From NCBI RefSeq assembly GCF_023973145.1, contig NZ_CP099546.1, positions 1,054,001 to 1,118,000 on the forward strand: a DNA stretch of 64,000 nucleotides, given 5' to 3'. A model generated the notes under the pieces. It was not told where the DNA came from. It did not search any database and worked only from the letters and a program-made list of their open reading frames with translations. Source of the DNA: Natronosalvus vescus. Its GTDB lineage: Archaea > Halobacteriota > Halobacteria > Halobacteriales > Natrialbaceae. Each line of letters begins with the position of its first letter. Positions within the stretch are counted from its first letter, which is position 1. A program made the translations under genes and the position numbers. This document shows, piece after piece, positions 21,521-30,352 of the stretch.

Positions 21521-22111
21521 TCACCGCGGTGGCTCGTCACGTGCACCCAGCGCACTCCGGCGCAGGTGAGAGTGGTGAACCAGCGAGGAGACGCCAAACA
21601 TCAGGAGGATGATCGCCGAAAGCACCTGTCCGGACAACCCCTGAAACGGGTACACCGAGGCCCAGACGAGTGCGATCAACAGCGTTCCAACCGCGCTCAA
21701 CCCGAGATAGTACTGACTCCATGGAATGTCGTGTGCGGGGACGTACTCGAGGTACATCTGTACCTCCCGTGCATCCTCCGTCAACTCGACCGTCCCCCTC
21801 GAGCGGTCGTACTCGATGATGCCTGCGTCGGCCAGTTTCGGCAGGTGTGACTGGCGCAACGCCGTGTAGATGCGCTTGCGCTTCTTCCAGGAAATGTCCT
21901 CGATTGGCATCTCGTACTCCCACGCGGTGAGCGCATCGACGAGTGTTCGCAAGTCGGTTTGTCCCGTTTCGTCACGTTTGAGATAATAGAGAACCCATCG
22001 CCTGCGCTGATTGCTCAGCACGGTGAATACCTCGTCTCGAGACGGTGAATCCTCCGGAATCTGTTCTGCAGTACCCCCCAGTGTGTCAATGGCGTGTGGA
22101 ATATTCGTCAC
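21521..22111 (-). CDS. DUF7344-type winged-helix regulator with two TM segments
   Basis: The protein has 196 residues from a GTG. Residues 25-110 form a haloarchaeal DUF7344-like winged helix-turn-helix (DEVFTVLSNQRRRWVLYYL, then LRQSHLPKLADAGIIEYD). Two TM segments follow (YYLGLSAVGTLLIALVWAS and VLSAIILLMFGVSSLVHH), so it is membrane-tethered. In haloarchaea such regulators often sit beside the exported DUF1102-type gene clusters and probably control them. It is transcribed divergently from that cluster, with a 407-base gap containing the shared promoter element. Confidence 0.75.
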   Translation of the reverse strand: MTNIPHAIDTLGGTAEQIPEDSPSRDEVFTVLSNQRRRWVLYYLKRDETGQTDLRTLVDALTAWEYEMPIEDISWKKRKRIYTALRQSHLPKLADAGIIEYDRSRGTVELTEDAREVQMYLEYVPAHDIPWSQYYLGLSAVGTLLIALVWASVYPFQGLSGQVLSAIILLMFGVSSLVHHSHLRRSALGARDEPPR

Positions 22112-22518
22112 GTGAACCCCCCCAAATGATTCCCATCGTGACGCTCTCTCTTAGATAAGTTAATTAATTGGAACGTAGCCGTGGGTAGCCTCTTGCTGTC
22201 CACGAACAGGGAGTCATTATTCGCTCGAGGACGTCGGTTCCTGTCCTGTTTCCCGCTACCCACCGTCGTCGGAGGATCGAACGACCCATTCCACTGGCTG
22301 CTCATCTCACCTCCTGTTCGTTGTGTGAGCACGCTTGTCGGTCGTCGAAAGCCCTCCCTGCGTCTCGGTCGCAGAGAAGGTCGTGCCTGCAGGCGCTACC
22401 TGTCGCCCCTCCTTGGAGTGTATACACAAACCCGGTTCCATCGATGACAGAGCCAAGCGCGCCCCATGTCGGTCAGTCGGTGTGACCGCACACGGGATCC
22501 GCCGGAGAGTACACAGTT
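22112..22518. other. Divergent intergenic region with promoter of the DUF1102 cluster
   Basis: A 407-base gap. It contains a TAAGTTAATTAATTGG AT-rich stretch about 45-65 bases before the regulator start at 22111 and the conserved promoter element at 22401-22429 for the forward cluster. No additional gene was seen. Confidence 0.6.
22401..22429 (+). promoter_or_regulatory. Conserved promoter element of a DUF1102 gene (copy 1)
   Basis: TGTCGCCCCTCCT, three variable bases, then AGTGTATACACAA. The TATACA core is the TATA box, about 98 bases before the ATG at 22519. The same 29-base element recurs at 26806-26834, matching at 26 of 29 positions; the following GGT.CC...GATG pattern is also shared. 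A shorter version precedes the gene starting at 28375. Confidence 0.65.
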
Positions 22519-23136
22519 ATGAAACGACGACAGTTCGTTCTCGGAACCGGTGTGGCAGCGATCGGCGGTGCAACGCTCATCGGCACCGGGGCCTTTTCGG
22601 GTGTGGTATCGAAGCGGTCGACGAAAATCAGCGTCGCCCACGACAGGGACGCGTACCTGGGACTGAAACGCAGCGACAGCCCCAATCGAAGCTACGTCGA
22701 CTACGACGACAAAAAGCACCTGCGGGTTCGGATGGACAAGAAAAACCCCACCGAAGGCGGTGGTCAGGGCGTCAACTCGGATTCGATCTCCTGGTTCGAC
22801 AACCTCTTTCACATCTGTAACCAGGGGAAAGAGCCGTCGAAGATTTTCGTGCTTAAATCCGGTGACGAACCCGACCGGGTGACGTTCTACCACGGCAACT
22901 TCAGCAACGGGTACGAGATCGTCAGCGGCCAGACGCTCGCGGTGAGTGAGTGTCTGGAGGTCGGTCTGTACACGTACACGAAGGATATCGAGGCGCACAC
23001 GCAGCTGCTCAGGAACGTCATCATCGTCGCCATCGCCGAGAGCGCCTTCACGAAGGAGATGAAACCGGACAATCTGCTCGAGGCGGTCGAGATGCCCGAC
23101 CGAAAATCCGAGGAGTGGGTGCTCAACGGCGCATGA
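22519..23136 (+). CDS. Exported DUF1102-type protein (paralogue 1)
   Basis: The protein has 205 residues. The N-terminus KRRQFVLGTG is a twin-Arg-like signal ending in GTGAFSG near residue 27. The mature part carries VAHDRDAYLGL and the cluster-wide motif VNSDSISWFDNLFHICNQGK. Two paralogues (23133 and 26933) share the NSDS...CNxGK pattern; 27857 keeps only the FxxCNxGK part. The family is of unknown function; mature domains of this kind are predicted all-beta and extracellular. Its stop overlaps the next ATG (ATGA). Confidence 0.75.
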   Translation: MKRRQFVLGTGVAAIGGATLIGTGAFSGVVSKRSTKISVAHDRDAYLGLKRSDSPNRSYVDYDDKKHLRVRMDKKNPTEGGGQGVNSDSISWFDNLFHICNQGKEPSKIFVLKSGDEPDRVTFYHGNFSNGYEIVSGQTLAVSECLEVGLYTYTKDIEAHTQLLRNVIIVAIAESAFTKEMKPDNLLEAVEMPDRKSEEWVLNGA

Positions 23137-23696
23137 CCGATCCGTCCACGCTGAACCGACGGCAGACGCTGGCTGGGCTCGGCAGCATCGGCCTCGGTGC
23201 GCTCGCGCTCGTTGGCGTGTCCTATTGGCGACAGACGTCCGAGACCGCTGTTCGGTCGAACGACGACGATACCACCGTTCACTCGCCGGGGACGTCGAAC
23301 GGAACCGACGACGACGGAACGGACGACGGTGGCGATCCCATCGACACGGAAAAAAAGCGGAAAATCACTATTCAGCTACCGAAGGGCGACCACGACCGCT
23401 TCAACTCCGATTCCATCTCGTTCGTCCACGACGGCTTTTACGTCTGTAACCGGGGGAAATCGGCTGCCAGCGTCTGGATCGACGCGGATCCGGTGACGAA
23501 CGACCGAGGCGAACCCGCCGTCAGGTTCTATCGTGATGGGAATCTCGGTGACCGAATCGACAGTTCCGACCAGGCGGCCCACCTCGAGGCTGACTCCTGC
23601 CTCCGCGTTGGCGTCATGACTCGCACGTTTGGGATTGCCGGCGAGACGACCCTGGTCGAGAAGGTCGACGTTCGAACCGAACGGAAGGATCCTTGA
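23133..23696 (+). CDS. Exported DUF1102-type protein (paralogue 2)
   Basis: The protein has 187 residues and overlaps the previous stop by four bases, so the pair is co-translated. The signal region has NRRQTLAGLGSIGLGALALVG. A long Asp/Thr-rich linker (residues 40-75) follows. The mature domain repeats the family motif FNSDSISFVHDGFYVCNRGK. It lacks the AYLGL region of paralogue 1, so it may be a specialised subunit. There is no lipobox. Confidence 0.65.
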   Translation: MTDPSTLNRRQTLAGLGSIGLGALALVGVSYWRQTSETAVRSNDDDTTVHSPGTSNGTDDDGTDDGGDPIDTEKKRKITIQLPKGDHDRFNSDSISFVHDGFYVCNRGKSAASVWIDADPVTNDRGEPAVRFYRDGNLGDRIDSSDQAAHLEADSCLRVGVMTRTFGIAGETTLVEKVDVRTERKDP

Positions 23697-24112
23697 CGAC
23701 ACCCGGTTCGAAGCGGGGTGGGAACGCTGTCGTCGGTGGTGGGATATCACAGTCTGTTCGTCCGTCGGTTCCGCTGTCCTAGACGCTCTTCCTTTTCGTG
23801 TCTCTATCCCTGCTCCGACTCCTCGAGAACTGATCACACGAGAAGACAGTCACTACTTGGTGTCAGTCACTCATTACTTACCATCACGGATGTTGCCCAC
23901 TCGTCCGTGATCCGTTTCGCCGCTATCGAGACACGTACCGGCGCGGATCGGGGGTGGGGGACGTTTAGTGTTCGTCGCACAGCGGAACCAGCCGTCGATC
24001 GGTGTCACGCAGCAGTGGCTATCGACACCTGGGCCGACCGACACTCCCTGCGCTGTGACCGGATAGATCTCGAGGGACGTGCGCTGGTGGGAAGGGGTGT
24101 GACGACACACCA
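23697..24112. other. Intergenic, no gene seen
   Basis: A 416-base gap between the DUF1102 pair and the signal peptidase gene. No coding sequence of plausible composition was found on either strand. It may hold the promoter for 24113, but no strong TATA box stands out near the start. Confidence 0.5.
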
Positions 24113-25264
24113 ATGACGATTCGTGGGTCTCTCAGCAGCGTCCTCACCGTCGTCGTCGGACTCATTGTCGTGTTGTTGCTCGTTGGTGCTCTCCTTGGCC
24201 AGCCGGTGTTGCTGTCGTACGTCGAGACGGGGAGCATGGAGCCGACGATCGAATCGGGCGACGGCTTCATCGCGATTCCGACGGCTGTCAGTGGCCCGGT
24301 CGAAACGGGAGACGTCGTCGTCTTCGAGGCCCAGGAGATCGACGGCGGCGGCCTGACGACACACCGTGTCGTCGCGGAGACTGATCACGGCTACGTGACG
24401 CGCGGTGATGCAAATATGGTCACCGACCAGGACGGTGCCGAACCGCACGTCACCGACGGCCAGGTCGTCGCCAAAGCGCTCCAGGTGAACGGCGAGGTGG
24501 TCACGATCCCGCACCTTGGAACGGCGGTGATGGGCATCCAGAGCGGCCTCGAGGCGACCCAGCTACGCCTGGCCTCGCTGTTGGGGACGGGGGCACTGCT
24601 GGGATCGTCCGGCCTGTCGGCGCTCCTGCTCGGGTTCGGCATCGCCGTACTCGCCGTCTCGTTCCTGCTCGAGCGCGGCGCTCGAACCGAGCGCTCTCGA
24701 AGTCGCCAACGGCGGCCGCGGCGAGACGTCTTCGACGCGAAGCGAGTCGTCCTCGCACTGGCGCTCGTGATCGCGCTCGTCTCCGCGGGGACGATGGCGA
24801 CCATGTCGGGGTCGACCGAGACCGGGATCGTCAGCAGCGAGTACGATTCCGGTGCGCACCACGTCATCGCGGCCGGTGAGACCGAGACTCAAACCTACGA
24901 AGTGGCCCACAACGGCCCCGTCCCGGTGGTGACGATGTTCGAGCCCTCGAGCGACGGCGTGACCGTCGACGAGGAGCCGAAGCGCCTCGAGCGTGGCGAC
25001 GCGGTCAACGTAACCGTCGGCGTTACGGCACCACCGGAGACAGGGTACTACCTCCGGTCGTTCTCGGAGTATCGCTACTTCGCGGTGCTTCCCACGCCGG
25101 TGATTGCGACGCTGCATACGATCCACCCGTGGCTGGCGGCCGGAGCCGTGACGGTGGTCGTGACGGGGGTGTTCGTGCTCCCGTTCGCGCTGCTCATCGG
25201 CACGGGGACAATTCGGACGCGGGAGCGACGGCGAACGGGGCACGGGAAACGTACCTTGTGGTGA
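24113..25264 (+). CDS. Signal peptidase I, archaeal type (S26B), with large C-terminal extension
   Basis: The protein has 383 residues. The catalytic part (1-150) holds TM1, then ETGSMEPTI (Ser nucleophile), LTTHRVV (His in place of the bacterial Lys, typical of archaeal/ER enzymes) and VTRGDANMV. Residues 150-190 hold two hydrophobic segments. Residues 200-350 form an extra region: a TM segment (RVVLALALVIALVSAG), an extracytoplasmic domain with YEVAHNGPVPVVTMFEP, and a final TM segment. Sitting in the middle of the DUF1102 cluster, it is the likely maturation peptidase for those proteins. Confidence 0.85.
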   Translation: MTIRGSLSSVLTVVVGLIVVLLLVGALLGQPVLLSYVETGSMEPTIESGDGFIAIPTAVSGPVETGDVVVFEAQEIDGGGLTTHRVVAETDHGYVTRGDANMVTDQDGAEPHVTDGQVVAKALQVNGEVVTIPHLGTAVMGIQSGLEATQLRLASLLGTGALLGSSGLSALLLGFGIAVLAVSFLLERGARTERSRSRQRRPRRDVFDAKRVVLALALVIALVSAGTMATMSGSTETGIVSSEYDSGAHHVIAAGETETQTYEVAHNGPVPVVTMFEPSSDGVTVDEEPKRLERGDAVNVTVGVTAPPETGYYLRSFSEYRYFAVLPTPVIATLHTIHPWLAAGAVTVVVTGVFVLPFALLIGTGTIRTRERRRTGHGKRTLW

Positions 25265-25322
25265 TTTTCATGGAGACGATAACGCACACACACGACAGAT
25301 CCGAATTCGGGGGGTATCGACG

Positions 25323-26528
25323 ATGAACGGCGAGCGAGCGATTCTCAGAGCGCGATCGGCGCTCGACCAGTGGTTCGTCCTCGTGGTCGTGGTGCTGGTC
25401 GCGCTGAGTGCGTTCGGGGGCTGGATGGCCTACTCCGCGTACGCGGCCGATCCTGCCCCGGACGACGAGCGGACGGTTGAAGTGTGGTCGACCACTGCCG
25501 GCTACCACCACAGCGCCGAGGTGCAGGTCGACAACCCGGTGTTCGACGTCGGTGACGAACTGTCGAACCAGCCGGTGTACTACACGCGCATCGCCCCGGA
25601 GCTCGAGGGCGAGTTCAGACACCGCTACGACGGCACCGATGGTGTCGTCACCCTCGACGTCGAACTCGAGCGGGTCGTCCGATCGGTCGACGGTGACGCT
25701 GGCGAGTACTGGTCGGTGTCCGAATCGCTCGGATCGAGCACGGTCGACGACCTCGAGGCCGGCGAAACGCACACCACGGCGTTCACGCTCGACGTCCCCG
25801 GCCTGGCAAACGAAACCGACGAGATCGACTCGAGCCTCGGTAGCACGCCTGGAACCACGGAGACCGTCGTCGTCGCTTACGTCACGCTCGAGGGCACTGT
25901 GGACGGCGAGTCGGTGAACCAGACCAATCGATACGAACTGGTAGTCGACCCAGACGGCGACACCTACACCGTCGAGGGGCCAGAAAACGATCGATACGCC
26001 GAAGAGCGGACGGAGGCGGTCGAGAGCGATGCGGCGGCCGGGGCCGGCTTCGATCTCGGCGAATCCCTGGGTGGACTGGTGTTGCTCGTCCTCTCGCTGT
26101 CGGCGCTTGGCGCTACGACGGTCGCGAAACGACGGGGAGCGCTCACTCCCTCGGCGGCCGACCTCGAGCGCGCCCGTGCCAGACACGAGCGCGAGCAGTT
26201 CGACGACTGGATCACTCGCGGCGTGCTTCCCGACGCGGTACTCGATCGCCCGCGGGTGGACGTCGACACGCTCGAGGGGCTGGTCGACGTGGCGATCGAT
26301 TGTGAGAAGCGGGTGATCGAAGAACAGACCGAGGACGGGCCGTCCTACTGGGTGCTCGACGGGGGGCTGCTGTACGTTTACGAGCCCGTGGAGCCGGTGC
26401 TGGAGGGATCCGAAGACGTGCGACCCGGCGACGATGGCGACGCACCACCCGAGGAACCTGTAGTAGAGGGCGTCGAGGTGGACGGCCTCGAGGAAGGGGA
26501 CGGGACGATTTCGTCCGGGAACGACTGA
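25323..26528 (+). CDS. DUF5305-type membrane protein
   Basis: The protein has 401 residues. A TM segment lies at 19-42 (FVLVVVVLVALSAFGGWMAYSAY). An extracytoplasmic domain (60-220) follows with VEVWSTTAGYHHSAEV and QPVYYTRIAPELEGEF, the usual DUF5305 landmarks. A second TM segment lies near 245-262, and a cytoplasmic acidic part ends in EEGDGTISSGND. The gene follows the signal peptidase with 58 bases between. DUF5305 genes are commonly found beside S26B peptidases in archaea, and the protein probably helps assemble or anchor the exported proteins. Confidence 0.75.
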   Translation: MNGERAILRARSALDQWFVLVVVVLVALSAFGGWMAYSAYAADPAPDDERTVEVWSTTAGYHHSAEVQVDNPVFDVGDELSNQPVYYTRIAPELEGEFRHRYDGTDGVVTLDVELERVVRSVDGDAGEYWSVSESLGSSTVDDLEAGETHTTAFTLDVPGLANETDEIDSSLGSTPGTTETVVVAYVTLEGTVDGESVNQTNRYELVVDPDGDTYTVEGPENDRYAEERTEAVESDAAAGAGFDLGESLGGLVLLVLSLSALGATTVAKRRGALTPSAADLERARARHEREQFDDWITRGVLPDAVLDRPRVDVDTLEGLVDVAIDCEKRVIEEQTEDGPSYWVLDGGLLYVYEPVEPVLEGSEDVRPGDDGDAPPEEPVVEGVEVDGLEEGDGTISSGND

Positions 26529-26932
26529 TAGGGATCGTTGTCGTCTCTTCTCGAGAAGCGGCGACACGCGACGGCAATCATCGGGAAACCGTTCAAACCG
26601 GTTCGATCGCTCGTTTAATGATGGGAGCGGCAGTGCCGCTCGGCTTACTCGGACTGTCTCGAGATCGACCCCCACGGGTGGCGACGGTCTCGAGGCCGGT
26701 AGGATGTCGTTCCCGGTTGGTACTGCTTGGTATCCAATTCCCGACAGATCGTAGCCGGACGCTTCGGCGTCTCACGAGGTGCCTGTCACTACTGCAGGAG
26801 GGGGATGTCGCCCCTCCTGTCAGTGTATACACAAGGGTGGTACCGGTGATGGTGGAGATACATGCGTTCAGGTGTGGCGACTGGTTGGTGGTGTGGATGG
26901 GGTGTCGGGGGCTGAACGCACTGGAGACACTC
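26529..26932. other. Intergenic with promoter of the next DUF1102 gene
   Basis: A 404-base gap. It holds the 29-base promoter element (26806-26834) about 100 bases before the next ATG at 26933. An open frame upstream of this ATG (from 26618) has no family resemblance and is not translated in my view. Confidence 0.6.
26806..26834 (+). promoter_or_regulatory. Conserved promoter element of a DUF1102 gene (copy 2)
   Basis: TGTCGCCCCTCCT, GTC, then AGTGTATACACAA, followed by GGGTGGTACCGGTGAT. It is the second copy of the element at 22401-22429, 99 bases before the start at 26933. The conservation of the TATA box and the flanking C-rich block points to a shared regulator site. Confidence 0.65.
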
Positions 26933-27595
26933 ATGGAACGACGCAAATTCCTGATCGGTGCTGGGAGTACAGCAATCGGCGCAAGCGCAATCATCGGCTC
27001 GGGCGCGTTCAGTCGAATCGAATCGCAGCGGCACGTTTCGATAGCCGTAGCAGAGGATTCGGAGGCGTATCTCGGATTGGAACCGCTCGATACGCTCAAC
27101 AGCCAGAATTACGTAGCACTCGATGATAACGGGCATCTCTACGTCCAGATCGACGGTGAGGGTGATCAGCAGGACAATGGTGGAGATGGGCCTGAAGGGG
27201 TGGGTGTCAACTCTGACTCATCCACTTGGTTCGACGGAATGTTCGATATCTGTAACAACGGCAAGGCAGAAGCAACCGTGAGGATCGACGTTGCTGGTCT
27301 GCAGTTCCACTCTTCCTCTGAAGATGGAATCGAACCAGACGACGATTATGGGCGTCCGATCGTCGACGTATTCTATTACGACGACGAAGGAAATGAAGTT
27401 TCGATCCTTACAGACTCGGAGGATGAATCATGGGATTATGGTGAAGATCTAACCCTCGATGTAGGCGAGTGTGAAACGATGAACATCCGAACGAACACGA
27501 AGGGTATTGATGCGACAATGGATGACGAACCTCTCGTGGAAGGTGATGCAACCGTCGTCGCCGACGCGCCTGGAGCGGGTGAAGTGAACGACTGA
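26933..27595 (+). CDS. Exported DUF1102-type protein (paralogue 3)
   Basis: The ATG at 26933 (MERRKFLIGAGSTAIGASA) gives 220 residues. The signal ends in GSGAFSRIESQR, and the mature part begins HVSIAVAEDSEAYLGLEPL. The NSDSSTWFDGMFDICNNGK motif is near residue 93. The C-terminal part is rich in Asp/Glu. Its DNA is noticeably less GC-rich than neighbouring genes, which may indicate transfer. It is convergent with the next DUF1102 gene. Confidence 0.75.
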   Translation: MERRKFLIGAGSTAIGASAIIGSGAFSRIESQRHVSIAVAEDSEAYLGLEPLDTLNSQNYVALDDNGHLYVQIDGEGDQQDNGGDGPEGVGVNSDSSTWFDGMFDICNNGKAEATVRIDVAGLQFHSSSEDGIEPDDDYGRPIVDVFYYDDEGNEVSILTDSEDESWDYGEDLTLDVGECETMNIRTNTKGIDATMDDEPLVEGDATVVADAPGAGEVND

Positions 27596-27856
27596 TTACC
27601 CTTCACTATATCAGTGAGAATCGACAAACGAATTCGTTTTTGTTCGAACTAAGGGGTCGGTAGTAAACCTACTTTCAAGGGGATCGAAATCTGTTTATCT
27701 ATCGAAAGCAAAGAATCGTATCTGTTTTGTTAGTCGTCTTGATTGGGGATGGCTATGGGATCCTTTCGAGTGATCACTCGCTTTATTGAGAGGTATCACG
27801 ACTATACTATCTAAGAGATTATAGAAATAGCCGGTCTCAACGTTCTTGAACAGTTC

Positions 27857-28375
27857 TCAGTCTTCGTATTTGTCGACGTCGGCGTGAATCACGATCTCGT
27901 CGTCGAACAGCGTGAGATCCTCGAGCCCCTCTGCGTCGACGCCGATACCGATGCACGCACACTCACCAACGTCGAGATCGAACCCGTTCGATTCGCTATC
28001 GACAGGGTCGTCCGGGTCGTCTCCCAGGTAGAACCACAGCCGGTCTTCGTACTCGTCAATCTCGAACTCTATCCAGATTCTTGCTCCTTCCTTGCCGTGG
28101 TTACAGACCTGGAAGACGTTGTCGAACTCGCCCGTCCGAATCGCCTCCGCCAGTCCCTCGACTTCGAGGTGGCCGTGGTCGTCGAGAGTAACGGTAATCT
28201 CGTCGCTGTCCAGTGCTGGACACTCGTCCATCGCGAGGTAAGCGCTCGGGTCTTCGGCCAGCGCGATCGACACGTGTCGTTGTGATTCGGCTCTGCTGAA
28301 CGCGCCGCTGCCGATCACCACGGTACTCGCGAGCCCAGCTGTACCAACGCCAGTCAGGAATGTTCTCCGTTCCAT
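27857..28375 (-). CDS. Exported DUF1102-type protein (paralogue 4)
   Basis: The protein has 172 residues. MERRTFLTGVGTAGLAS is a twin-Arg-like start, followed by GSGAFSRAESQRHVSIALAED, almost identical to paralogue 3 at the processing region. The FDNVFQVCNHGKEG motif aligns with the family core, but the NSDS part before it is not kept. The gene is read toward paralogue 3, with an AT-rich 261-base gap between their stops. A shortened form of the cluster promoter lies upstream at 28439-28465. Confidence 0.75.
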   Translation of the reverse strand: MERRTFLTGVGTAGLASTVVIGSGAFSRAESQRHVSIALAEDPSAYLAMDECPALDSDEITVTLDDHGHLEVEGLAEAIRTGEFDNVFQVCNHGKEGARIWIEFEIDEYEDRLWFYLGDDPDDPVDSESNGFDLDVGECACIGIGVDAEGLEDLTLFDDEIVIHADVDKYED

Positions 28376-28767
28376 GTGAAATCACCCGGTGACGACGGGT
28401 GGGTCGCCGTTTGCGACCGCCTCCGGGATACGCGAAGTATCACCGCACCCACCCTTTTGTATATGGAGGCAGACGTCGGGTAAGGAGAGCCTGTTCTCTA
28501 TGGCGGCGGCTCGTTGCTGGATCTATTCGTATTCACAGAAATTTCCGTAACCGCTTCTGGCTGTTCGTGTACTCGAACACCAAAACGGTCGTGGGTCAGG
28601 TGCTGAGTGCCGAATGCTGCGTTCCGAGTGTCGAGTGTATGCCCGTGAAACGGCTCGAGCAGCCGGCCGCACAGACAGACGACTGGATCCTGGTAAAACC
28701 GGGTGAAATGGATGAAAAGAGCGTCGTATGGCGTGCAATTGACGCTCCAGAGGATGGCGCCGATGTG
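28376..28767. other. Intergenic with promoter of paralogue 4
   Basis: A 392-base gap between two genes on the minus strand. The reverse strand carries TATACAAAAGGGTGGGTGCGGTGAT at its 28439-28463 end, resembling the TATA-proximal part of the other two promoter copies. The rest shows no gene. Confidence 0.55.
28439..28465 (-). promoter_or_regulatory. Partial promoter element shared with the other DUF1102 genes
   Basis: On the minus strand: TATACAAAAGGGTGG followed by GTGCGGTGAT. It matches TATACACAAGGGTGG and the CGGTGAT tail of copy 2 at most positions but lacks the TGTCGCCCCTCCT block. It lies 64 bases before the start at 28375. Confidence 0.5.
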
Positions 28768-29343
28768 TTACGGCAATAGCGTTACGCAGTACGTGTACAG
28801 CTCGGACAGGTTGTTACCCGGTTCGATGTTCCGAGCATGCATTCGAACGTAGTACTCGCCGTTGAGGCCGCTGACGTCGAGATACTCGGTCGTATCGAAC
28901 TTCTCGTTGTTGACCAGTCGAACCTCGTAATCGTCGTGATTCCCCATCTGATTCTCGGAAACGACGAGGTAACTGCGGTTTCTCGTGCTGTTGTCCCCTG
29001 TATTCTCCCAGATTATTTCGATCTCGTTCCAGTCGGTGAGGTCGACGGCTTCCATCGTGACCCACGTCTCCTCGACGACGTGGTTCCCGGGTCTGATCGC
29101 CTGGACGTACAGGTAGGTGTCTCCTTTCTCGTGTGTCGGTTCGTTGCCGTCACCCTGACTGAACCCCTCTATCCAGAAATCCTCGTTTCGCCCTTCACAG
29201 TAGAGTTCCTCGCCGACCCGTTCGTCCACGTCGATGGTCACTCGACGCTGTGACTCGACCCGGGTGAACCCACTGGTCGCGGTTATCGTTCCTGCACCCA
29301 CGAGAACGGTTCCAGTTGCCTGTAACAGTCGACGTCGTTTCAT
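28768..29343 (-). CDS. Exported DUF1102-like protein (divergent paralogue 5)
   Basis: The protein has 191 residues. The signal region MKRRRLLQATGTVLVGAG is followed by SGFTRVESQRRVTIDV, matching the FSRxESQRxVSI processing region of paralogues 3 and 4. The rest (YLYVQAIRPGNH, IEIIWENTGDNSTRN) differs and lacks the NSDS/CNxGK motif. It has a beta-rich composition with aromatic residues. It may be a distinct exported component sharing only the leader. Confidence 0.6.
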   Translation of the reverse strand: MKRRRLLQATGTVLVGAGTITATSGFTRVESQRRVTIDVDERVGEELYCEGRNEDFWIEGFSQGDGNEPTHEKGDTYLYVQAIRPGNHVVEETWVTMEAVDLTDWNEIEIIWENTGDNSTRNRSYLVVSENQMGNHDDYEVRLVNNEKFDTTEYLDVSGLNGEYYVRMHARNIEPGNNLSELYTYCVTLLP

Positions 29344-29430: not shown

Positions 29431-30352
29431 CTACCCAACCGACAGGCAGTTGCAGTCGTGAACGTTGGCTTCCCATACTGGTTCGAATGCTGTACGAACG
29501 GCGGGAATAGTGTCGCTGTGAACGACAAGACGGGGTTCTGGAGGTTGCCAGCACCGATTCGTACTGCTCGTCACCAGCACGGCGTGACACTCGGCGCATT
29601 CGAGTCTCGCCTGAGTAATTTCGGTACAACAAGTGTCTCGAACCTCCTCGCGTGCAGTGATTGCCCCATCACACTCCGGACACGCTTCGAGAAACACCCG
29701 TAACCCGGCAACGACAGCCCCTTGCTGGTCGTCTTCGAGACGTTCCCACCCGGAACAGTACGCATCCAGCACGGGCACAATCCCCAGATCTGCCAGAAAC
29801 GCGGCCTCCGAGGGCCACAGGCCGATCCGTTCGCTCTCGTAGGAGGCGGTGTACCTACCAGACGACTCCTCGAGCGCCAGCGCCGACGCTTCGACCTCGA
29901 GACGAGCTGCCAGTCGCTCGAGTCGATCGCCTGCCCGCTGAATCGCCGCGATTTCGCCCCGCCAGGCCGTCCGGAAGTCAGGGTCGAGACAGAGGTCGTC
30001 TTCGTCGGGACACTCCTCGACGATGGTCGACTCGAGGAGGAACGTCTCGAGGTCGAATGTGTCCACGTCCTCATCATTTGTCTCGAGTACAGCCGTCGAC
30101 TCTCCGTACTGCGTGCCGAACAGCCGATGGATCGGGGAGGTACCGTTTCGTCAGTTCCGGCGTCCCCGGGACGAGATACCCGCGAAGGACGATCGCTGTC
30201 AGACAGCCGACGAACACAACCACACCAGCGAGTGGTGTCACGAGCACCCAGACGACTCCGGTCACGCCGAGCGCGATGAGCGTGTTCACCACCGTACAGG
30301 GCAGACAGTGATTCTCGCCCGTGTACTCAGGTTGTCGAATCGACTCGAGCGT
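29431..30352 (-). pseudogene. Disrupted haloarchaeal membrane/zinc protein (start codon lost, 1-base frameshift)
   Basis: Two adjacent reverse reading frames make one recognisable protein. The first part reads LESIRQPEYTGENHCLPC and ends in LRGYLVPGTPELTKRYLP; the second begins IHRLFGTQYGES and holds CPECD...CCTE...CAEC. They join if one G is removed from the GGGG run at 30134-30137. The codon where ATG is expected is ACG (30350-30352), and no usual start lies between it and the upstream stop at 30358. Intact relatives are single proteins with N-terminal TM segments and a C-terminal zinc-binding module (recalled). Either sequencing error or decay could explain it. Confidence 0.7.

Follow-up and report, generated by a model that had tools for sequence, protein, structure and literature searches.

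The locus lies at positions 21521 to 29343 of the window, by which we mean the whole 64,000-nucleotide stretch of the Natronosalvus vescus genome that was analyzed. Its eight genes stand where a preliminary description of this DNA had placed them, as judged by open reading frame coordinates and translations. A DUF7344 winged-helix regulator on the reverse strand (21521..22111) is followed by a forward run of p2 (22519..23136), p3 (23133..23696), an ER-type signal peptidase I with an extra beta-domain (24113..25264), a DUF5305 membrane protein (25323..26528) and p6 (26933..27595), and then by p7 (27857..28375) and p8 (28768..29343), both again on the reverse strand. We annotate p2, p6 and p7 as predicted Tat-leader fimbrial subunits, p6 being of TafE type and p7 having a shorter head, p3 as a probable anchored base subunit, and p8 as a divergent protein whose likeness to the others is confined to the leader region. 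The start of p3 overlaps the end of p2 by ATGA. The genome holds three such clusters, the other two being cluster A (184–198 kb) and cluster B (222–227 kb), and each cluster has one of the genome's three DUF5305 genes and one of its three over-threshold archaeal signal peptidases. The neighboring open reading frame beside p8 (29431–30066) encodes a cysteine-rich, cytoplasmic-looking protein with no apparent relation to the locus.

All five small proteins (p2, p3, p6, p7 and p8) carry a twin-arginine motif at the N-terminus and are therefore probably Tat rather than Sec substrates, as far as their sequences indicate. The preliminary description had given them a common leader and a common GxGAFSR processing region. 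The exact string occurs in just two of the five, p6 and p7; GTGAFSG stands at this point in p2 and the degenerate version TSGFTR in p8, and p3 has nothing resembling the motif, reading VSYWRQ instead. A second motif, NSDS..CNxGK, is present as described in p2, p3 and p6, with p7 keeping CNxGK alone. Among ten paralogs the leader is better conserved than the body, with mean pairwise identities of 52% and 29% respectively. Searching the whole genome with a GxGA[FY]S DNA pattern yielded nine leader genes, all of them in the window cluster or in clusters A and B; when the four remaining matches closest to the motif were translated, none proved to be a leader. The TafE match of p8 (25 bits) covers residues 1–42, the same segment to which partial relatives in two genomes are confined, and its body had no relative in 125 genomes of the family.

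A profile built from seven family members matched one solved structure, 9p0a (E=7.8e-19), named in the fold search as the Tafi pilus subunit of Natrinema sp. J7-2. Mature p6 is predicted to form a beta-sandwich (mean pLDDT 78.6), and the best three of 730 Foldseek matches to this model were the Tafi pilus (6.6e-6), the Pyrobaculum bundling pilus (3.2e-4) and the Sulfolobus thread (4.0e-4). By VIA the same three folds scored Z 9.4 for 9p0a (rmsd 3.9 over 143 residues), 7.9 for AbpA of Pyrobaculum calidifontis (7ueg) and 7.0 for the Sulfolobus acidocaldarius thread (Saci_0406, 7pnb), of which the first alone exceeds the level reached by common arrangements. Sequence and fold both indicate homology of the window subunits to a solved pilin. 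No sequence match to AbpA was found, and the likeness to it is one of fold. Both the bundling-pilus and the thread kinds of archaeal fiber have been described as donor-strand fibers (PMC9674648, PMC9715654). The thread subunits of Sulfolobus are exported by Sec, a co-expressed partner has been proposed as a cap, and none of the nearby genes could be assigned as a chaperone or usher (PMC9715654).

In 9p0a, 188 of 215 residues are modeled and the aligned range ends at residue 215, which places the mature start at F28, directly after GTGA, provided that there is no internal gap. Alignment with this structure suggests F26 as the mature start of p6. The first ~15 mature residues (SRVESQRxVxIxVA) are conserved and beta-patterned yet fall below pLDDT 50 in the p6 model, a combination that fits a donor strand modeled without its partner. 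As the model is of a monomer, polymerization is beyond what it can show.

TafA is the core component of haloarchaeal Tat-fimbriae, which were published in 2025 (Galeva et al., iScience 28:111793, as cited in PMC12687288), and we compared the locus with ten reference loci around strong TafA matches. In 10 of 10 reference loci the match to the peptidase spanned almost the entire protein and took in the extra domain, and the DUF7344 regulator was present in 9 and the DUF5305 protein in 8; in the window, all three adjoin the subunits, and p2, p6 and p7 have a twin-arginine leader with a GxGA/F site. The subunits themselves are another matter. One reference locus (L122) has TafA, TafC and TafE all over their cut-offs, whereas no window subunit passes the NCBIfam cut-off for TafA (best 30 versus 190 bits) or TafE (155 bits, against 57 for p6, 45 for p7 and 41 for p2), and TafC has no match among the window proteins. 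The window locus thus has the same machine without the standard subunits, and its proteins represent a divergent tafi-type variant as opposed to TafA or TafE equivalogs. More widely, the DUF5305 family is present in 239 of 292 genomes of the class, with the peptidase alongside in 25 of the best-scoring 30 DUF5305 loci. Orthologs of p2 are 74–77% identical, and p6 has a 65% identical paralog in cluster A.

The preliminary description had assigned the small proteins to DUF1102 (PF06510), a label that does not hold for the window, where p2 (20.6 bits), p6 (17.8 bits) and p7 (15.1 bits) all remain under the cut-off of 22.2. Three relatives in cluster A do pass it. A literature search for DUF1102 by name found no mention of it, and another for haloarchaeal TasA or donor-strand cryo-EM found nothing relevant.

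Although p3 is homologous to p2 along the head (hhalign E=1.1e-17), p3 and its orthologs lack the processing motif, the donor strand and the first head strand. At its N-terminus p3 has a hydrophobic segment at residues 12–31, followed by an acidic linker. A p3 profile had no significant match among solved structures. This arrangement of segments suggests that p3 is probably a membrane-anchored base subunit. Strong matches to p3 occur in 6 of 125 family genomes, a rarity indicating that a p3-type anchor is not general. The picture of exported fiber subunits in several variants served by a dedicated, possibly SipW-like peptidase, put forward in the preliminary description, is supported, with the correction that p3 is without the shared processing site.

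Two of the membrane proteins proved to be as first described. The peptidase is an archaeal signal peptidase (TIGR02228, 53 bits, over cut-off) with ~230 extra residues, and the DUF5305 assignment is strong (PF17231, 7.5e-54). Residues S41, H84 and D99 of the peptidase fall in invariant columns, and an extra beta-domain at about residues 233–323 sits between further transmembrane segments. Against solved structures, the catalytic part of the peptidase profile alone found a match, to SEC11. The structural model of the peptidase is poor overall (mean pLDDT 62), with residues 251–360 mostly at 74–91. In this low-confidence model, the extra domain resembled PapD-like, MSP and ASH domains and pilus chaperones, with a best Foldseek value of 1.8e-3 and Z values of up to 7.9, inside the range given by common arrangements. 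Likeness to the PapD of chaperone-usher systems is accordingly a weak lead. A domain common to the extra part of the peptidase and to DUF5305 was also considered and ruled out (hhalign probability 2%).

Upstream of p2 and p6 lies a palindromic element, GTGTATACAC-AA, which is a candidate operator or TATA region and may overlap the TATA box. On the forward strand, one copy (22418..22429) is 101 bp upstream of the p2 start codon and the other (26823..26834) 110 bp upstream of that of p6; before p7, a possible degenerate element, CATATACAAAAGGGTGG (28449..28465, reverse strand), resembles the p6 element by eye. The sequence GTGYATACACAA has two copies in the whole 3.84-Mb genome, namely those upstream of p2 and p6, and the palindrome is absent from clusters A and B. 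Across 372 kb of loci we counted 11 palindromes, as against 0–1 in shuffles. The element is conserved upstream of p2 in three loci (L046, L049 and L051) in which orthologs of the regulator adjoin p2, and it occurs 80–115 bp upstream of leader genes in several genera (in a few pieces the next gene could not be scored). The regulator combines a DUF7344 winged helix (PF24035, 4.9e-28) with hydrophobic segments at residues 134–181 in its C-terminus, in accord with its earlier description as membrane-tethered. The palindrome was found in 4 of 4 loci whose regulator scores >220 bits to that of the window and in 0 of 19 with a weaker one, a co-occurrence confounded by relatedness.

Taken together, these observations lead us to conclude, with a probability of roughly 0.8, that these genes specify a divergent pilus of the Tat-fimbria (tafi) type. 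The locus shares with the known haloarchaeal Tat-fimbriae, among them the Tafi pilus of Natrinema sp. J7-2 (9p0a), the Tat leader ending in GxGA/FS, the pilin head, the peptidase with an extra domain, DUF5305 and DUF7344; it differs in its sub-cut-off subunits and missing TafC match, in the p2–p3 pair with p3 as an apparently uncleaved anchor, and in the locus-specific palindrome. This haloarchaeal system, which the preliminary description did not name, is a much closer relative than TasA and has both a solved subunit and matching loci. As a type, the tafi system has been known since 2025; what sets this version apart is its divergence, the probable anchor subunit and the dedicated promoter element, a palindrome first described here. 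A single haloarchaeon can on this evidence carry three tafi-type loci differing in their subunit sets.

We propose a model in which p2, p6 and p7 would be exported folded via Tat, in keeping with their twin-arginine motif, and cut by the signal peptidase of the locus after GxGA and before FSR/FSG, at the site indicated by where the solved relative begins. Once released, this N-terminal strand, which is unstructured on its own, would slot into the groove of the next subunit to build a donor-strand fiber, as fold and predicted disorder suggest. With a head that lacks both processing site and donor strand, p3 would stay in the membrane, receive the donor strand from its neighbor in the fiber and act as the anchor. 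DUF5305 may help at the membrane, and the membrane-tethered regulator would control the p2 and p6 promoters via the GTGTATACAC palindrome with which it co-occurs. The locus bears on the assembly and anchoring of donor-strand pili in archaea, and it offers testable candidates for an anchor (p3), an assembly factor (the extra domain of the peptidase, DUF5305) and a switch (the regulator with its palindrome). A bolder version, which we consider improbable, has the peptidase double as a pilin chaperone whose PapD-like extracellular domain passes cut subunits to the fiber, with uncleaved p3 as the membrane base. Were it true, it would amount to a one-membrane, usher-free pilus assembly that unites peptidase and chaperone in one protein, with a membrane-tethered regulator acting as its switch through a dedicated palindrome.

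We are less certain that the locus makes a fiber of its own and does not serve that of cluster B. With every window subunit below the TafA and TafE cut-offs, and no clear major subunit (TafA) among them, part of the set may serve as minor or tip components of a fiber whose rod another cluster supplies. Carried to its end, this argument would make all of them accessory or tip proteins on fibers whose TafA-like rod comes from cluster B (226 kb), a locus without a separate fiber and still tafi-type. The better match of the window proteins to TafE, named a fimbrial adapter, than to TafA is consistent with such a role, as are the long extra bodies on the adapters of cluster A and the stronger match of a cluster B protein to 9p0a (1.6e-17 versus 1e-7 for p6). 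However, the locus owns a peptidase, a DUF5305 protein and a regulator, and its promoter element has no counterpart in clusters A and B, and we therefore hold a purely accessory role to be a tentative, rather doubtful alternative.

A separate fiber also competes with the idea that the proteins are monomeric, non-polymerizing surface adhesins with a common export leader. Some relatives have the head fused to VWA or beta-helix domains, and p8 has just the leader in common with the others; the match in fold and sequence to a solved polymerized pilin and the conserved but unstructured N-terminal strand make this quite unlikely. The Bacillus tapA-sipW-tasA operon resembles the tafi-type locus in that it includes a dedicated signal peptidase as well as a partner subunit that is co-expressed, and its leaders are Sec, not Tat. 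Of the two likenesses drawn in the preliminary description, kinship with the Pyrobaculum bundling pilus is borne out by the fold matches, and the one with TasA is without sequence support; TasA entries are not among the fold matches listed for p6, an absence that excludes nothing. A secreted and bundled biofilm matrix fiber of TasA/TapA type, as opposed to a cell-fixed pilus, could draw on the SipW model match of the peptidase (NF046067, E 4.4e-8, 33 bits versus a cut-off of 190), on the fold match to a bundling pilus and on the p2/p3 overlap, reminiscent of that between tapA and sipW (PMC10151520), but is the least probable reading, as the TasA/camelysin and SipW-dependent leader models of Pfam and NCBIfam had no match among window proteins at E up to 0.5 and the Tafi pilus is much closer in sequence, structure and gene content, for which reasons we set TasA aside as nearest relative in favor of tafi.

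Beyond the divergent tafi-type locus of the window, the related clusters vary in composition. Two Halorubrum contigs (L036:7645-20158 and L037:7695-18509) carry arrays of ~8–9 leader proteins with several DUF7344-like regulators. In cluster A (L023:9487-16812, 187–195 kb) the leader and head are fused to long extra bodies, for totals of 342–573 aa, and relatives carry a VWA domain (L036:10001-11563) or a beta-helix (L044:7227-8594) in the position of the body; the set has the look of tip adhesins in which one body has been exchanged for another. A 374-aa protein of cluster B (L024:10909-12033), possibly a different kind of anchor, begins with a Sec-like leader and ends in a hydrophobic C-terminus; it matches DUF1102 and contains a CARDB/Ig-like domain.
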